From: Ochrovirga pacifica
Lineage (GTDB): Bacteria; Bacteroidota; Bacteroidia; Flavobacteriales; Flavobacteriaceae
DNA length: 64,000 bases
Direction: 5' to 3'
Assembly (NCBI RefSeq): GCF_000220525.1
Contig: NZ_AFPK01000014.1
Location: forward strand, 124,001 to 188,000
Shown: positions 39,317 to 46,006 of the stretch, one piece after another
How the letters are laid out: each line of letters starts with the position of its first letter
Position numbering within the stretch: the stretch's first letter is position 1
Notes under the pieces: generated by a model
Databases searched by the model: none
Told to the model about the DNA's origin: nothing
What the model saw: only the letters and a program-made list of their open reading frames with translations
Translations under genes and position numbers: made by a program

Positions 39317-41074
39317 ATGTACAGAAGTCACACCAACGGAGAATTAAGAATGGAAAACGCTGGCCAAGAAGTAACATTGGCTGGATGGGTGCAAAAATCA
39401 AGAGATAAAAGATTTATGATTTGGGTAGATTTACGTGATCGCTATGGAATTACACAATTGATTTTTGATGAAGAAAGAACAGAAGCTTCTGTAATTGAAA
39501 AAGCAAAAACGTTAGGTCGTGAATTCGTAATTCAGGTAAAGGGAACTGTAATTGAGCGTGAAGCTAAAAATAAGAACATTCCTACCGGGGATATTGAGCT
39601 ACTTGTACACGAGCTAGAGATACTAAACGAGGCTAGCCTCCCTCCTTTTACGATTGAAGATGAAACTGACGGAGGTGAAGACATCCGAATGAAATACCGT
39701 TATTTAGACATTCGTAGAAATCCGGTTAAAAACAACTTGATTTTCCGTCATAAAGTAACACAAGAGGTAAGAAACTACTTATCTAACCAAGATTTTATTG
39801 AAGTAGAAACTCCTTATTTAATTAAATCTACTCCAGAGGGAGCTCGTGATTTTATTGTTCCATCGAGAATGAACCAAGGAGAATTTTATGCTTTACCACA
39901 ATCACCTCAAACTTTTAAACAGTTGTTAATGGTGGGGGGAATGGATAAATACTTTCAAATTGTAAAGTGTTTTCGTGATGAGGATTTACGTGCCGATCGT
40001 CAACCAGAATTTACTCAGATTGACTGTGAATTGGCTTTTATAGAGCAAGAAGATATTTTAAGAATTTTTGAAGGAATGACTCGTCATTTGTTAGAGAAAA
40101 TCAATAATGTAAAAGTGGGGAGTTTCCCTAGAATGACTTTTGAGCATGCCATGAAAACCTACGGAAACGACAAACCAGACATCCGTTTTGGAATGGAGTT
40201 CGGTGAGTTGAACGCTGTTGCACAACACAAAGAATTCAAGGTATTCAACTCTGCTGAATTGGTGGTGGGAATTGCAGTACCAGGAGGAGCTAGTTATACT
40301 CGTAAAGAAATTGACAAGTTGATTGACTGGGTAAAACGTCCACAAGTTGGAGCTTTAGGAATGGTGTATGTTAAATGCAATGAAGACGGTTCTTACAAAT
40401 CATCAGTAGACAAATTCTACGATCAAGAGGATTTAGCTGCTTGGGCAGAAGCTACAGGAGCTAAAGCAGGGGATTTAATTTGTGTATTATCTGGACCAGC
40501 AAATAAAACAAGAGCTCAATTATCTGCCTTACGTATGGAATTAGCAGAGCGTTTGGGATTAAGAAAATCGGATGAATTTGCTCCTTTATGGGTAGTTGAC
40601 TTCCCATTATTAGAGTGGGACGAAGATACAGAAAGATACCATGCAATGCACCATCCGTTTACAAGCCCAAAAACAGAAGATATTGCCTTATTAGACTCAG
40701 AACCAGGAAAGGTAAGAGCCAACGCTTACGACTTGGTATTGAACGGAAACGAAATTGGAGGAGGATCGATTAGGATTCATGACAAAGAAGTACAAGCGCT
40801 AATGTTTAAACACTTAGGATTTAGCGAAGAAGAAGCAAAAGAACAGTTTGGTTTCTTAATGAATGCATTTGAATACGGGGCTCCACCACACGGAGGTTTA
40901 GCCTTTGGTTTGGATAGATTGGTTGCTATCTTAGGAGGACAAGAAACCATTCGTGATTTTATTGCTTTCCCAAAAAACAATTCGGGTAGAGACGTTATGA
41001 TCAATGCACCTGCTGCAGTAGCCAACGAAGTTCTGGAAGAGTTGAGCATTGCAAGTAAGCCATCTGAAGATTAA
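39317..41074 (+). CDS. aspS: Aspartate--tRNA ligase
   Basis: 585-residue bacterial-type class II AspRS. N-terminal OB-fold anticodon domain ([20 protein letters not shown], residues ~15-105), motif 1 ([20 protein letters not shown]), motif 2 ([18 protein letters not shown]), the bacterial GAD insertion in the middle (about 290-400) and motif 3 ([15 protein letters not shown]). Full length. A ferritin gene follows 56 bases later, so the two may share a transcript. Confidence 0.97.
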
Positions 41075-41130: not shown

Positions 41131-41649
41131 ATGTTATCGGAAACTATAGAAAACGCATTAAATAAGCAGATTAAATTAGAAGCCAATGCTTGTATGAGAT
41201 ATTTAGCCATGGCAACTTGGGCCGAAGTAATTGGTTACAACGGAGTAGCAGGATTTTTTTACAAACAATCGGATGAAGAAAGAATTCATATGCTTAAACT
41301 GGTGAAATTTGTAAACGAACGAGGAGGAACTGCAGAAATTCCTAGCTTGGAAGCTCCAAAAAGCACTTACAAAGATTTGCACGAATTGTTTGGCAACTTT
41401 TTAGAAAGTGAAGAAGCCGTTACCGAAAGCATCAACCACTTGGTCTTTCAAACTTTGGAAGAAAAAAACTACACTGTGCACAACTTTTTGCAATGGTACG
41501 TTGCAGAACAAGCAGAAGAGGAAGCATTGGCCAGAACTATTCTGGATAAATTAAAAATTATTGGAGACGACAAAAGTGGAACTTATTTGTTTGATAAAGA
41601 CATTGAAGGTATTGTGGCTCAAACTGAACTAAACGAAGCTCAAGAATAA
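41131..41649 (+). CDS. Ferritin (FtnA-like)
   Basis: 172-residue iron-storage ferritin forming 24-mer cages. Ferroxidase ligands are visible: the first Glu in NKQIKLEANACMRY (helix A), the helix B pair around SDEERIHMLKLV (E..H) and the helix C Glu in VAEQAEEEALA. ATG 41131 (MLSETIENALNKQIKLEANA) is the family start; the in-frame upstream codon at 41095 is not conserved-looking. Confidence 0.94.
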   Translation: MLSETIENALNKQIKLEANACMRYLAMATWAEVIGYNGVAGFFYKQSDEERIHMLKLVKFVNERGGTAEIPSLEAPKSTYKDLHELFGNFLESEEAVTESINHLVFQTLEEKNYTVHNFLQWYVAEQAEEEALARTILDKLKIIGDDKSGTYLFDKDIEGIVAQTELNEAQE

Positions 41650-41678
41650 TTATTTAGATTAGATTAAAATAAAAAGTT

Positions 41679-41686
41679 TATATTTG
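41679..41686 (+). promoter_or_regulatory. -7 box before the small Cys/Lys-rich ORF
   Basis: TATATTTG, full TAnnTTTG match, 25 bases before GTG 41712. Confidence 0.5.
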
Positions 41687-41722
41687 CACTGATTATCAAA
41701 AACATAAATCAGTGCATTTTTT
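41687..41722 (+). promoter_or_regulatory. Hairpin covering the small-ORF start (or ferritin terminator)
   Basis: GCACTGATT (41687-41695) and AATCAGTGC (41707-41715) are perfectly complementary with an 11-base loop, followed by ATTTTTTATT. It follows the -7 box directly and its right arm holds the GTG start of the small ORF. It could be the ferritin terminator, an attenuator or a translation-masking structure. Confidence 0.5.
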
Positions 41723-41870
41723 ATTAAACAAACTTTCTATTACAGAGCAAACACAAGTAACTACTAGTGCTTGTACTGGTTATTCTTGTATGGGTAAAAA
41801 GAAAAAATGTTGCAAAAAATATAAAAAGAAAGGAAAATCACACTGTAAAAAGTGTCCTATACAGGCTTAA
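41712..41870 (+). CDS. Small Cys/Lys-rich peptide (52 codons)
   Basis: An ORF of 52 residues from GTG 41712 to TAA 41868. The first 20 residues (VHFLLNKLSITEQTQVTTSA) lack Cys; the rest has six Cys (positions 21, 26, 33, 34, 45, 48) and 12 Lys after residue 28, as in CTGYSCMGKKKKCC and HCKKCP. It has a consensus -7 box upstream and lies between ferritin and the ClC gene. Such composition suggests metal binding, nucleic-acid binding or a peptide with a leader and Cys-rich core; I do not recognise a family. The start codon is non-ATG and is not proven. Confidence 0.5.
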   Translation: MHFLLNKLSITEQTQVTTSACTGYSCMGKKKKCCKKYKKKGKSHCKKCPIQA

Positions 41871-41926: not shown

Positions 41927-43726
41927 ATGCCACATAGAAAAAGAAGTCTATTTAACCAATTTCTAATCTGGAAGTACAAGCATATCTCGCCAGAGAATTT
42001 TGTATATATTATTAGTGTTTTAGTTGGATTTTTGGCCGGAATTGGAGCGGTTACTCTTAAAAACCTTACTCACTTTATTTTTGAGTTTTTAAGAACAGGA
42101 TTCATTAAAGAAATCCATATGGGATTTTATTTCGTATTTCCAATCATTGGTCTATGTCTAACTTTACTGGTCATAAAGTTTGTGATTAGAAAAAAGATTG
42201 GGCATGGTATTCCATCAACCCTTTATGCTATTTCTAAGCGAGAATCTATTATGTATAGATACCAAATGTGGGCTTCTATTTTAACCGCCCCGCTAACCGT
42301 GGGGTTTGGAGGTTCTGTGGGATTGGAAGGCCCGACCGTAGCAACGGGTTCTGCTTTGGGCTCTAACTTTGCAAGATTGTTTCACTTAGATCAAAGAACA
42401 AGAACACTTTTGGTAGGTTGTGCTGCTGCAGGTGCAATGTCTTCTATCTTTAAAGCTCCAATTGCAGCCATTGTTTTTGCGGTAGAAATTTTTAGTTTAG
42501 AACTTACGCTAGCCTCTATGGTTCCATTGCTGTTGGCTTCTATTTCGGCAGTTATAACTTCTTATTTCTTTTTAGGAGGAGAAGTTTTATTACACTTTGA
42601 GATTCAGGATAAATTTCAGTTAGAAGACATTGCTTTCTACATTTTTCTGGGAATTATATGTTCCCTAACCTCAATTTACTTTACTAAGGTGTACTTTTGG
42701 ACTCACGATTTTTTTAAAAAAATTGAGAATCCATGGTACAAACTCCTTTTAGGGGGTGGATTAATTGGAATTATTGTTTATTTCATTCCTCCTCTTTTTG
42801 GAGAAGGTTTTGAAACTATTAATGGTGTTCTTCGTGGGGATGCTTCTACCATACTTAAAAACAATATTTTTCACTCTAAAGCAGACTCTATACTTATGAT
42901 AGTTGGCTTATTGGTAGGACTTATTATTTTTAAGGTGATAGCCATGGCTCTTACCTTTGGGGCTGGTGGTATTGGAGGTGTTTTTGCTCCTACTCTTTTT
43001 ATTGGTAGTGTTACGGGTTATGTGGTAGCAACGGTTGTAAACTATTCTAAAATTGTTTCGCACACAGTTTCTCAAAGTAATTTTGCTATGGTAGGTATGG
43101 CTGGTTTAATGGCAGGAGTGTTGCATGCTCCGCTAACAGCAATCTTTTTAATTGCTGAAATTACAGGAGGTTACGAATTATTTATCCCGTTAATGATTGT
43201 TGCAGCCATTTCATTTTTGGTTACCAAAAACTTTATTCCTCACAATATTTACGCTGCAGAATTGGCCAAAAAAGGACAGCTTATTACACACGACAAAGAC
43301 AAAAATGTACTAATGATGATGGATATAGATAAAGTTATTGAGACTGATTTTATTTCTACCACTCCTAAAATGACTTTGGGCGAACTGGTTCAAAAAGCGG
43401 TCGTTAAATCTAAAAGAAATAATTTTCCTGTAGTAAATAAAGACAATCAACTTATTGGTGTTTTGCATATGGATGATATAAGACCGATTATGTTTAACAC
43501 AGAGCTGTACGACTCTACTTTTGTTTCTGATTTAATGACCAGTCCACGAGATATTATTGACTACGATCAAGATTCTATGGAAGTCATTATGGAAAAATTT
43601 AAAATTACCTCTGCCTGGAACTTACCTATTATAAAAGAAGGCAAATATCTTGGTTTTATTTCTAAATCGCGATTATTAAACGCCTACAGGAGAAAATTAA
43701 TTATGGCTAGCGATTCTTTTTCTTAA
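41927..43726 (+). CDS. ClC-type chloride channel/antiporter with CBS domains
   Basis: 599-residue membrane protein. The ClC core (about 1-435) shows HGIPSTLYA, GSVGLEGPTVATGSALGS (GxEGP with the gating Glu; the usual Arg is Leu), FKAPIAAIVFAVEIF and GAGGIGGVFAPTLFIGSV. Two CBS domains follow (about 455-590; TPKMTLGELVQKAVVKSKRN and ITSAWNLPIIKEGKYLGFIS). It moves chloride, possibly in exchange with protons. Its last 126 bases (43603-43728) are duplicated at 48324-48449, on the far side of an inserted island, so the present C-terminus may have been brought in by the insert. The gene remains intact. Confidence 0.93.
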   Translation: MPHRKRSLFNQFLIWKYKHISPENFVYIISVLVGFLAGIGAVTLKNLTHFIFEFLRTGFIKEIHMGFYFVFPIIGLCLTLLVIKFVIRKKIGHGIPSTLYAISKRESIMYRYQMWASILTAPLTVGFGGSVGLEGPTVATGSALGSNFARLFHLDQRTRTLLVGCAAAGAMSSIFKAPIAAIVFAVEIFSLELTLASMVPLLLASISAVITSYFFLGGEVLLHFEIQDKFQLEDIAFYIFLGIICSLTSIYFTKVYFWTHDFFKKIENPWYKLLLGGGLIGIIVYFIPPLFGEGFETINGVLRGDASTILKNNIFHSKADSILMIVGLLVGLIIFKVIAMALTFGAGGIGGVFAPTLFIGSVTGYVVATVVNYSKIVSHTVSQSNFAMVGMAGLMAGVLHAPLTAIFLIAEITGGYELFIPLMIVAAISFLVTKNFIPHNIYAAELAKKGQLITHDKDKNVLMMMDIDKVIETDFISTTPKMTLGELVQKAVVKSKRNNFPVVNKDNQLIGVLHMDDIRPIMFNTELYDSTFVSDLMTSPRDIIDYDQDSMEVIMEKFKITSAWNLPIIKEGKYLGFISKSRLLNAYRRKLIMASDSFS

Positions 43727-43870: not shown

Positions 43871-43919
43871 AAGACTCTCAATGACTATCACAAGTTTTTA
43901 TATCTTTAAAGAAAAAACT

Positions 43920-44477
43920 ATGTCAGAGAAATATAAGGTTATAGACAGCTCTATGCCTACCTTTATTACTTGCTCTTTTACCCAGTGGGCAGATATCTTA
44001 ACAAGACCAAATTATACATCTATATTAGATGAATCTTTACAGTTTTGTATCAATGAAAAGGGATTAAGGATTCACTACTATGTATACATGACAAATCATA
44101 TTCATTTGATAGCTACCTCTGCTAAAAACAAACTTCAAGAAATAGTTAGAGATTTTAAAAGATATACCAACAAAATGTTGATTCAAGCAATTGAAGATAT
44201 TGGTGAAAGTAGAAGAGAATGGCTACTAGCAAAGTTCAAATACGAAGCTAATAGAACCAAAAGAGCCAATCAATATAAAGTATGGAAAGATGGTTTTCAT
44301 CCTGTTATTTTAGATACTGCTAAGAAATTAGAACAACGAATCCACTACATACATGCAAATCCTGTGGATGAAGGTTTTGTATCTAGACCTGAATATTGGA
44401 AGAATAGTAGTTATAATTTTTATGCGGAAGAGCTGAATTACGATGGTGGTTTAGAACTTACTAATTTATTTGAATAA
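43920..44477 (+). CDS. REP-associated tyrosine transposase (RAYT, IS200-like Y1)
   Basis: 185-residue HUH single-strand transposase of the REP-associated group. The HUH motif is TNHIHLIAT (His 60 and His 62) and the catalytic Tyr is Y143 in QRIHYIHANPVDEG; VWKDGFHPVIL lies before it, as in RAYTs. Both active-site parts are intact. The gene is a single copy bracketed by inverted REP-like hairpins (43745-43772 and 44511-44538) that the enzyme would recognise. RAYTs are usually domesticated and spread short hairpins rather than themselves; a further copy of the hairpin lies at 46874-46895. ATG 43920 is preferred over an upstream ATG at 43881, which lacks family sequence. Confidence 0.88.
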   Translation: MSEKYKVIDSSMPTFITCSFTQWADILTRPNYTSILDESLQFCINEKGLRIHYYVYMTNHIHLIATSAKNKLQEIVRDFKRYTNKMLIQAIEDIGESRREWLLAKFKYEANRTKRANQYKVWKDGFHPVILDTAKKLEQRIHYIHANPVDEGFVSRPEYWKNSSYNFYAEELNYDGGLELTNLFE

Positions 44478-44624: not shown

Positions 44625-45185
44625 ATGATGAATAATTTAGTTTATAGTTTTTTATATTCTGAGAAAAAAGATTTAGATTTTTCTATTATTGAAAAAGAGA
44701 GAGGCATTGTTTTACCTCTCTCTTATAAAATTTTTTTGAATAAATATAAGGTTGGAGATGAAAGTCTTAATAAGCAGAGTTATTTAGATGAAGATATTGG
44801 ATTTAAATTACCTCTGGTTAGTTATCAATACAAACAAAATGAATTTCTATTGGAATTAGATTCATTTTTATCGTTAGAAACAGCTCTAGATGATAGACCT
44901 TATGACGACCCTGTTTTAGGTGATGATGGTTTAAATTTAATTAGAATTGCATATTCTTCTTTTCCTTCAGGAGGAGGAGTTTATCTAGGATTAAATCGAG
45001 ATAATTTTGGTTTTATTTATAGAGTAGACTGGGATGGAGATGAAAATACTACTGCTATAAAAATTTCAAATGATTTGTTTCAGTTCTTGTCGATTTTAGA
45101 GCCTGTTATAATAGATGATAATTTAGATTATACTAATTTTTATAAAAATTGGGGAGAAGATTTTTGGAGGAAAAAAGAGGTTTAA
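44625..45185 (+). CDS. SMI1/KNR4 (SUKH) family protein, likely immunity protein
   Basis: 186-residue soluble acidic protein. The SUKH pattern is visible: IIEKERGIVLPLSYKIFLNK at the start, a YSSFPSGGGVYLGLNRDN strand region and FIYRVDWDGDENTTAIK. SUKH proteins are frequent immunity proteins against polymorphic toxins and nuclease effectors. It follows a truncated toxin-like tail by five bases, so it is probably an orphan immunity gene kept after loss of its toxin. ATG 44628 is an alternative start one codon later. Confidence 0.8.
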   Translation: MMNNLVYSFLYSEKKDLDFSIIEKERGIVLPLSYKIFLNKYKVGDESLNKQSYLDEDIGFKLPLVSYQYKQNEFLLELDSFLSLETALDDRPYDDPVLGDDGLNLIRIAYSSFPSGGGVYLGLNRDNFGFIYRVDWDGDENTTAIKISNDLFQFLSILEPVIIDDNLDYTNFYKNWGEDFWRKKEV

Positions 45186-45229
45186 TAGCTGAACCATCCT
45201 TCAAAGTTGTGGTATCATAGGTTTTATAG

Positions 45230-45319
45230 GAGAAACAATGTAAAGGATATATTTATAAAATTAGATTAAGAACTACTACATCAGAAGACTGGCAATATTT
45301 AAAAATTACCAACCCATAA
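45230..45319 (+). pseudogene. Short gene-tail fragment of unknown origin
   Basis: A stop-bounded frame ends with YIYKIRLRTTTSEDWQYLKI and TNP before TAA 45317. There is no start codon in a sensible place; it may be another toxin or immunity tail left in the array. Family not recognised. Confidence 0.3.
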
Positions 45320-45343
45320 CAATACAATTAAAGACTTTATACC

Positions 45344-46006
45344 ATGAAAAAGATATTATTTATAATAGGATCTCTATTTTTTTTACTTGCTAGCTTTAAC
45401 AAAGCAAGTGATGATTGCGATTTAGTACTAAAAAAGGTTATTGATGAACTTAATAATCATCCAAAACTAGCAGAGGCTGTAAAAGAAAATCCAAAGTTGG
45501 TTGATGCGTGGAAGAAGCTAGACGATTTAGGAGCAGATAATGCTTTAAAGAATGATCCAAAGGTTCTAGATTATGTCAATAGTGGTAGAAAAAATGAAAT
45601 AAACTTAGATGTAGAAGAAGTTTTAGGAGGACATTCGAAATTTAGACATGGATCTCATTTAACATATAATGACATGAAATTGAGGGTTTTAAATAAACAT
45701 CCTGATTTTCCTCAATCACGATCTGCACTAAAGTTTGATTCGGATGCTGTTCATCAAGATGCTGTAAATAAAGCATTTAAACATCATAAGTCAAGTATAG
45801 AATCTCACTTTAGCTCTAGTGATGATTATTTAACTTTGGAATACGATTATGGAAGTAAAGTAGGGTCTGGTTATACAAATACAGGATCGAGAAACAATCC
45901 AGTCGCAGAGCATGTCGAGAGTAATAAAGTTGTAATTGCATTAAAAAGAGATAGTACTAATCCAGACGGTTATATTTTAGACTCTGCATATCCGTCTTTA
46001 AATTAA
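45344..46006 (+). CDS. Exported RNase A-like toxin (CdiA-CT type)
   Basis: 220 residues. A Sec signal peptide (KKILFIIGSLFFLLASF, cleavage near residue 20) is followed by a linker of the kind seen before polymorphic toxin domains (HPKLAEAVKENPKLVDAWKK, to about residue 80). The C-terminal domain (about 95-220) resembles the bacterial RNase A-like toxin domain: HGSHLTYNDMKLRV with the early catalytic His, an Ala-rich helix pair (DAVHQDAVNKAFKHH), LEYDYGSKVGSGY and the ending VVIALKRDSTNPDGYIL then AYP. Such domains usually sit at the end of CdiA or Rhs proteins; here it stands alone with its own signal. The putative immunity gene starts six bases after the stop. Assignment is by pattern, without a search. 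Confidence 0.7.
   Translation: MKKILFIIGSLFFLLASFNKASDDCDLVLKKVIDELNNHPKLAEAVKENPKLVDAWKKLDDLGADNALKNDPKVLDYVNSGRKNEINLDVEEVLGGHSKFRHGSHLTYNDMKLRVLNKHPDFPQSRSALKFDSDAVHQDAVNKAFKHHKSSIESHFSSSDDYLTLEYDYGSKVGSGYTNTGSRNNPVAEHVESNKVVIALKRDSTNPDGYILDSAYPSLN

Follow-up and report, generated by a model that had tools for sequence, protein, structure and literature searches.

We describe a short gene, lying directly behind a ferritin gene in the flavobacterium Ochrovirga pacifica, that is very likely a real gene and very likely linked to ferritin. Its 52 codons were found in a stretch of 64,000 nt (positions 124,001 to 188,000 of contig NZ_AFPK01000014.1; hereafter the window). The encoded Cys- and Lys-rich microprotein belongs to a conserved coding family that is apparently undescribed, as titles and abstract openings in the open-licence PMC literature yielded no description of it. 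In Flavobacteriaceae, a conserved palindrome precedes the microprotein gene and rarely precedes ferritin itself. Because linkage to ferritin in two phyla is combined with a Fur-type palindrome and a ferric-reductase-type Cys motif, we suggest a role in iron mobilisation. Our preferred reading, to which we give slightly less than an even chance, is that an iron-starvation-induced, probably Fe-S microprotein helps to release iron from non-heme ferritin.

A short coding gene behind ferritin

The open reading frame (ORF) occupies the gap between the ferritin gene (41131-41649) and a gene for a ClC-type chloride channel (41927-43726). ORF 39317-41074, 5' of ferritin, we take from its sequence to be aspS. 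The ferritin scores as the non-heme type: it matched NCBIfam NF007638 at E 1.6e-34 and 119 bits, not reaching that model's equivalog cut-off of 178, and the bacterioferritin model TIGR00754 at only E 0.011. An earlier note, made from the sequence alone, had pointed out a Cys/Lys-rich ORF of 52 codons with six Cys after a Cys-free start of 20 residues. Direct reading bears this out, with Cys at residues 21, 26, 33, 34, 45 and 48, none in residues 1-20, and a Lys-rich core; the sole in-frame ATG is residue 27. Features of the locus are collected in Table 1.

Table 1. Features of the ferritin-microprotein locus (window coordinates)
Feature	Position	Strand	Remarks
Ferritin gene, non-heme type	41131..41649	+	Recurrent upstream neighbour; Pfam PF00210, E 1.6e-34
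Fur-box-like palindrome TTATTTAGATTAGATTAAAATAA	41650..41672		Begins right after the ferritin stop; 19/21 to consensus
Bacteroidota-type -7 box TATATTTG (TAnnTTTG)	41679..41686	+	Direct reading
Inverted repeat (perfect, 10 bp) overlapping the -7 box and GTG start, then T6	41685..41716	+	Arms 41685-41694 and 41707-41716, loop 12
Microprotein gene, 52 codons	41712..41870	+	GTG start, TAA stop; read from sequence
Extra N-terminal Cys pair, Cys21 and Cys26	41772..41789	+	Trait of the window's subfamily
Core CC-x10-C-x2-C, Cys33/34/45/48	41808..41855	+	FhuF-like; invariant in aligned members

Farther downstream, shortly 3' of the ClC gene, the window holds a small transposase-like ORF (43881-44474; Pfam Y1_Tnp, E 3.7e-6). 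Beyond it, an ORF with weak SUKH/SMI1 similarity (44625-45182; E 0.00057, under the cut-off) and another matching a bacterial CdiA-CT RNAse A domain (45344-46003; E 6.4e-9) together resemble an immunity/toxin pair (44625-46003).

The gene family and its conservation

Searched against 60 relatives up to E 10, where many rows are attributable to chance, the window microprotein alone yielded relatives sharing the pattern CC-xn-C-x2-C. A 14-row profile (E <= 0.01) then matched 146 of 299 genomes sampled from the same family, with exactly one match per genome; we take this family to be the Flavobacteriaceae, judging by named matches in Polaribacter and Tenacibaculum. The Cys pattern is kept in all 146 loci examined, the profile itself having been built on that pattern. 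The family core reads CC-xn-C-x2-C-P in Lys-rich surroundings, with n being 10 in 128 members, 8 in 10, 11 in six and 9 in two. Across 46 aligned members picked for diversity, Cys33, Cys34, Cys45, Cys48 and Pro49 are invariant. The earlier note had named the synonymous/nonsynonymous pattern as a check, and the core codons pass it: pN was lower than pS in 2016 of 2016 pairs (means 0.13 vs 0.77), all non-independent pairs of equal length and 70-97% identity. By this measure, purifying selection on the core codons is strong.

Two subfamilies can be told apart. That of the window (36 of 146 members) lacks an FDL-like tail, and a C-x2..4-C stands ahead of the core in 20 of the 36, compared with 5 of the 110 in the other. 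The larger subfamily (B; 110 members) has CP-x-FDL-like tails and often a GKKK start. Ferritin is a neighbour in both (24/36 and 78/110). Non-ATG starts are common in the family, as the start-codon counts of both subfamilies indicate. Probable start codons among the 110 were TTG (42), ATG (30), GTG (25) and GTT (1), with 12 unassigned, so that TTG or GTG starts 67 of the 97 subfamily-B members with an assignable usual start codon. In the 36-member subfamily, 28 have a candidate ATG 12 or more codons ahead of the core, and the other eight, which include the window microprotein, have GTG or TTG only. Since the gene is short and a TTG or GTG start is frequent, we surmise that it frequently escapes gene callers.

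Gene order around ferritin in two phyla

Neighbouring ferritins were called by the best tblastn hit within the ~1.5 kb seen per locus. The tie to ferritin, from which the earlier note had suggested metal handling, extends to the relatives: 102 of the 146 family loci have a ferritin gene directly upstream and in the same orientation, and none of the 146 has one downstream or on the other strand in that ~1.5 kb. At two loci (L004 and L131) the ATG of the microprotein gene overlaps the ferritin stop as TAATG. The closest relative found (L160) has the same order as the window, aspS-ferritin-microprotein-ClC, with a ferritin 88% identical to the window's. At three other loci (L178, L190 and L207) aspS, the microprotein gene and ClC are kept with no ferritin between them.

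The linkage is incomplete, and the exceptions count against a role in iron release. There is no adjacent ferritin in 44 of the 146 loci, nor does ferritin stand beside the gene in four named Polaribacter/Tenacibaculum loci. We also tallied an FtnA-like ferritin, at a cut-off of our own choice (E <= 1e-50), against the microprotein in the 299 genomes, kinship ignored as in our other genome counts: 121 have both, 18 only the ferritin, 135 neither, and 25 the microprotein without such a ferritin, which again tells against iron release. Inspection of the 18 ferritin-only genomes revealed a microprotein gene missed by the profile behind the ferritin in two (L246 and L252) and none within 500 bp behind it in the other 16; a palindrome scoring above 15/21 was found behind the ferritin in none of the 18. 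As a separate observation, a ferritin-less group with CC-x8-C-x2-C (L137, L139, L158, L173 and L174) was seen by eye near a 2Fe-2S-ferredoxin-like gene, in L137 and L173 also with an apparent ferredoxin-NADP reductase fragment.

The gene order recurs outside the Flavobacteriaceae. A profile search of genome contigs placed a locus from a Thiohalocapsa MAG (Chromatiales, Gammaproteobacteria) among the six loci listed, and there the microprotein gene comes just after a ferritin gene whose product is 33% identical to the window's. Profile matches occur in 18 of 99 genomes of this order. A same-strand ferritin was immediately upstream in 11 of the 15 loci inspected and absent in four; as one of the 11 is the seed locus (L241), 10 of 14 new loci have it. 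The distance from ferritin stop to start codon, read in 10 of the 11 linked loci (L269 gave no reading), is 24-38 bp in eight and 93 and 157 bp in two. The microprotein is only 24 residues long in five loci (L265-L268 and L271). The flavobacterial palindrome was not found in the 15 loci, the best score being 12/21, which speaks against the proposed role. At the level of gene order, linkage to ferritin therefore holds in both Bacteroidota and Gammaproteobacteria, on the Proteobacterial side by way of the Thiohalocapsa order. A phylum-wide Bacteroidota sample gave profile matches in 27 of 296 genomes, 18 of them from the same family. In other Bacteroidota families, ferritin was beside the gene in one of 12 readable loci (L009) and not in 11, a distribution that speaks against iron release; one further locus (L237) has no motif.

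Upstream elements and putative iron regulation

Immediately 3' of the ferritin stop, at 41650-41672, is a palindrome that does not appear in the earlier note. Scored against the consensus TTATTTAGATTNNATCTAAATAA with a threshold of at least 17 of 21 positions, it is present upstream of 118 of 146 members; shuffled sequences reached the threshold in 4 of 730 cases and downstream controls in 3 of 146. Loci with ferritin carry it in 92 of 102 cases and those without in 26 of 44. Most members have a degenerate right half. A clear box is missing in 28 of the 146, which weakens the case for Fur and for iron release. Ahead of ferritin itself a box was found in 3 of 101 cases at 17/21 (12 at the looser 16/21).

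The microprotein gene appears to have a promoter of its own, as the earlier note had proposed: the promoter-like -7 box TATATTTG is indeed present at 41679-41686. Of the 118 homologous loci with a box, 88 have a TAnnTTTG motif 3' of the palindrome (control, 4/118), starting 24-25 nt from the start of the box in 77 of the 88 and 29 nt from it in the window. We regard the palindrome as part of the microprotein promoter, because TAnnTTTG follows it and it is rare before ferritin. Judged by the distance to TAnnTTTG, the palindrome overlaps the -33 region.

The regulator that we propose for the palindrome is Fur. For Riemerella anatipestifer, also of the Flavobacteriales, a Fur box ATTTAGAATTATTCTAAAT has been predicted, and gel shifts showed binding of Fur to four promoters (PMC5609570). 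The family consensus ATTTAGATTNNATCTAAAT fits that box at 15 of 17 positions, so that a Fur box overlapping the promoter is seen, with the conserved palindrome, as a feature of the family. The window copy ATTTAGATTAGATTAAAAT fits at only 13 of 19, a score reached by 84 of the 127964 19-mers of the window. As this fit is not decisive by itself, the case for Fur rests on the family consensus, and we consider Fur control of the putative box upstream of the microprotein gene probable. Our first and second guesses for the palindrome, a DtxR-type and an Irr/ICE-like operator, were dropped for Fur after comparison with the R. anatipestifer box (PMC5609570).

Genome-wide occurrences of the box were then considered. 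Of 60 genomes, 18 contain boxes at most one mismatch from the consensus and none contains the reversed pattern at that level, and we read their neighbours in 20 loci. These include TonB receptors (L080, L085, L089, L090), AraC regulators (L081, L090), imelysins (L077, L087), a solute-binding protein (L076), DUF4856 genes (L075, L079), porins (L073, L078, L092, and L086 by eye) and the microprotein family itself (L084, L086, L088); four of the 20 (L074, L082, L083, L091) show no clear iron link. TonB receptors and imelysins are also among the R. anatipestifer Fur targets (PMC5609570). The near-perfect Fur-type boxes adjoining the porin-like (L073, L078, L092) and DUF4856 (L075, L079) genes suggest iron roles for these as well. 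The O. pacifica genome contains five Fur-family ORFs and three other sites with at most three mismatches, one of them between a TonB receptor gene and an AraC gene (L033) and the other two with no iron link. Two matches to the reversed pattern in this genome, together with the single iron-uptake neighbour among the three sites, argue against the Fur assignment.

The earlier note had further described a perfect 9-bp hairpin that includes the GTG start. The repeat is perfect and the GTG does lie in its right arm, but it is 10 bp long rather than 9. Its folding energy is -12.5 kcal/mol (z -4.5). Such perfect repeats are not rare on their own: comparable ones begin at 34 positions of the window, nested ones included, compared with 3-7 in six Markov-resampled copies. 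Because the hairpin begins inside the -7 box, RNA from that promoter would hold part of it at most; a transcript from 41688 would keep 7 bp (-4.8 kcal/mol). The T6 on its 3' side lends the hairpin a terminator-like look, and in L160 the arms are identical, the loop differs and the T-run is missing. A terminator scan admitting loops of 3-8 nt listed none at this hairpin, whose loop is 12. It might serve as a ferritin terminator, as a second operator or as a 5' stem.

Cysteine motif and comparison with FhuF and Bfd

When compared with NCBIfam, the window microprotein gave two matches only, both at the very end of FhuF-type ferric-siderophore reductase models: TIGR03950 (positions 199-222 of 223; E 0.0048, 16.7 bits vs a cut-off of 137.9) and TIGR03951 (positions 157-181 of 182; E 0.06, 13.4 bits vs a cut-off of 63.85). 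Of 14 members, 12 match the former (best E 7e-4) and five the latter (best E 0.06). None of ten shuffles, five with Cys fixed, matches either model, and one full shuffle gave an unrelated NCBIfam match at E 0.1. Direct comparison with FhuF gave E 3e-4 by blastp (a single comparison) and E 0.0044 with probability 7.8 by hhalign. In Pfam, FhuF_C (PF11575) was matched neither by the window protein nor by the 14 members, and the full FhuF domain (PF06276 and PF11575) was not matched by the window protein. A search of solved structures returned no match up to E 10. The AlphaFold2 model is poor (mean pLDDT 63.6), with a helix predicted at low confidence at residues 27-39.

FhuF is a 2Fe-2S ferric-siderophore reductase, Fur-controlled and derepressed at low iron, whose cluster is ligated by an otherwise unprecedented C-C-x10-C-x2-C (PMC8068687). 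The spacing CC-x10-C-x2-C is common to FhuF, the window protein and 128 of 146 relatives, whereas 18 have 8, 9 or 11. Also shared is CCx[KR]Y, found as CCQRYRLPDVQQCGDC near the end of E. coli FhuF and as CCKKYKKKGKSHCKKC in the window. Fur control, known for FhuF from the same source, is presumed for the microprotein. FhuF has a 200-residue domain, whereas the microprotein is stand-alone, Lys-rich and variable in spacing. We speak of likeness to FhuF and not of membership, since scores fall far under the cut-offs, FhuF_C is not matched and the spacing varies.

A functional parallel is Bfd, which releases iron from bacterioferritin via its heme (PMC7762939, PMC12363616) and whose gene is differentially expressed from the adjacent bfr (PMC7762939). 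Like Bfd, the microprotein is very small, and its gene adjoins one of the ferritin type from which it seems to be regulated separately; for the microprotein, the [2Fe-2S] cluster and iron release are presumed. Its neighbour in the window scores as a non-heme ferritin, not a heme bacterioferritin, and its partner would therefore offer no heme relay. The Bfd Cys spacing also differs from that of the microprotein. Fer2_BFD (PF04324) was matched neither by the window protein nor by any of the 14 members. In the O. pacifica genome its matches are confined to two large open frames, of 1181 and 855 aa, so that a classical stand-alone Bfd apparently does not fill the role.

Discussion

We propose that the microprotein gene is repressed by Fur and expressed when iron is short. 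The Lys-rich CC-xn-C-x2-C core would probably bind a [2Fe-2S] cluster, as the FhuF C-terminus does, and the charged, basic microprotein would dock on the shell of the neighbouring non-heme ferritin. Once docked, it could pass electrons to the ferric core, from which Fe2+ would be released. The microprotein would thereby do for a non-heme ferritin what Bfd does for the heme-containing bacterioferritin. We infer the cofactor and the reductase role, like the binding of Fur to the palindrome, induction by iron starvation, docking and electron transfer, from sequence features. Published accounts of ferritin expression disagree: iron restriction raises it in R. anatipestifer (PMC5609570), and in B. 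thetaiotaomicron it is lowered (PMC10434189).

Other roles can be envisaged for a conserved protein at this position. The four Cys might accept Fe2+ or a cluster from ferritin for delivery to apo-proteins or the machinery of Fe-S assembly, making the microprotein an iron or Fe-S chaperone and not a reductant. Ferritin linkage and the palindrome would fit this equally well, a protein this small, with only 24 residues in some relatives, suits a carrier, and persistence without an adjacent ferritin (44/146) would agree with a wider iron role; according to a 2016 review, no iron chaperone had been reported from prokaryotes (PMC4771812). Against this, the vicinal Cys and C-x2-C recall a redox-active cluster site, as in FhuF (PMC8068687), and an acceptor protein is purely hypothetical in our data; we consider a chaperone unlikely, though worth keeping in mind. 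Somewhat less likely again is an adaptor that binds zinc or has no cofactor, in which a zinc knuckle or disulfides would hold a Lys-rich protein that binds the ferritin shell or nucleic acid and controls access to the core, its assembly or its location. The strongly basic sequence, the predicted helix and the tolerance of spacings from 8 to 11 would all be compatible with it, whereas the Fur-type box and FhuF-like match point to iron and not to zinc.

Two further explanations we hold to be very improbable. The layout of a Cys-free N-terminal stretch before a Cys-rich part had led the earlier note to think of modified peptides, and a RiPP precursor would look like this. That idea was rejected: N-termini differ between subfamilies and are missing in the 24-residue relatives, leaving no conserved leader, the recurrent neighbour is ferritin, and no modifying enzyme is encoded among the immediate neighbours aspS, ferritin and ClC. 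It is just as improbable that there is no protein at all, and that the region is a ferritin 3' end with a terminator and a chance ORF. The hairpin and T6 right after ferritin, with the GTG start inside the hairpin, would be expected on that account; the pN/pS result in every pair and the invariant Cys and Pro lead us to reject it, and the gene has its own palindrome and -7 box. We retain iron release from non-heme ferritin as our preferred reading.

Iron exit from ferritins is generally poorly understood, bacterioferritins being a notable exception (PMC12363616). A microprotein beside a non-heme ferritin in two phyla, preceded in Flavobacteriaceae by its own Fur-type box, is a concrete and testable candidate for the missing exit step. 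More tentatively than the role itself, we suggest that this may be the first dedicated partner family of a non-heme bacterial ferritin: an Fe-S microprotein of 24-60 residues with a bare FhuF-type motif, induced by iron starvation, reducing the ferritin core and kept next to ferritin in Bacteroidota and Gammaproteobacteria. If so, few natural Fe-S redox proteins would be smaller, and the unusual vicinal-Cys [2Fe-2S] site of FhuF would have a minimal scaffold of natural origin.
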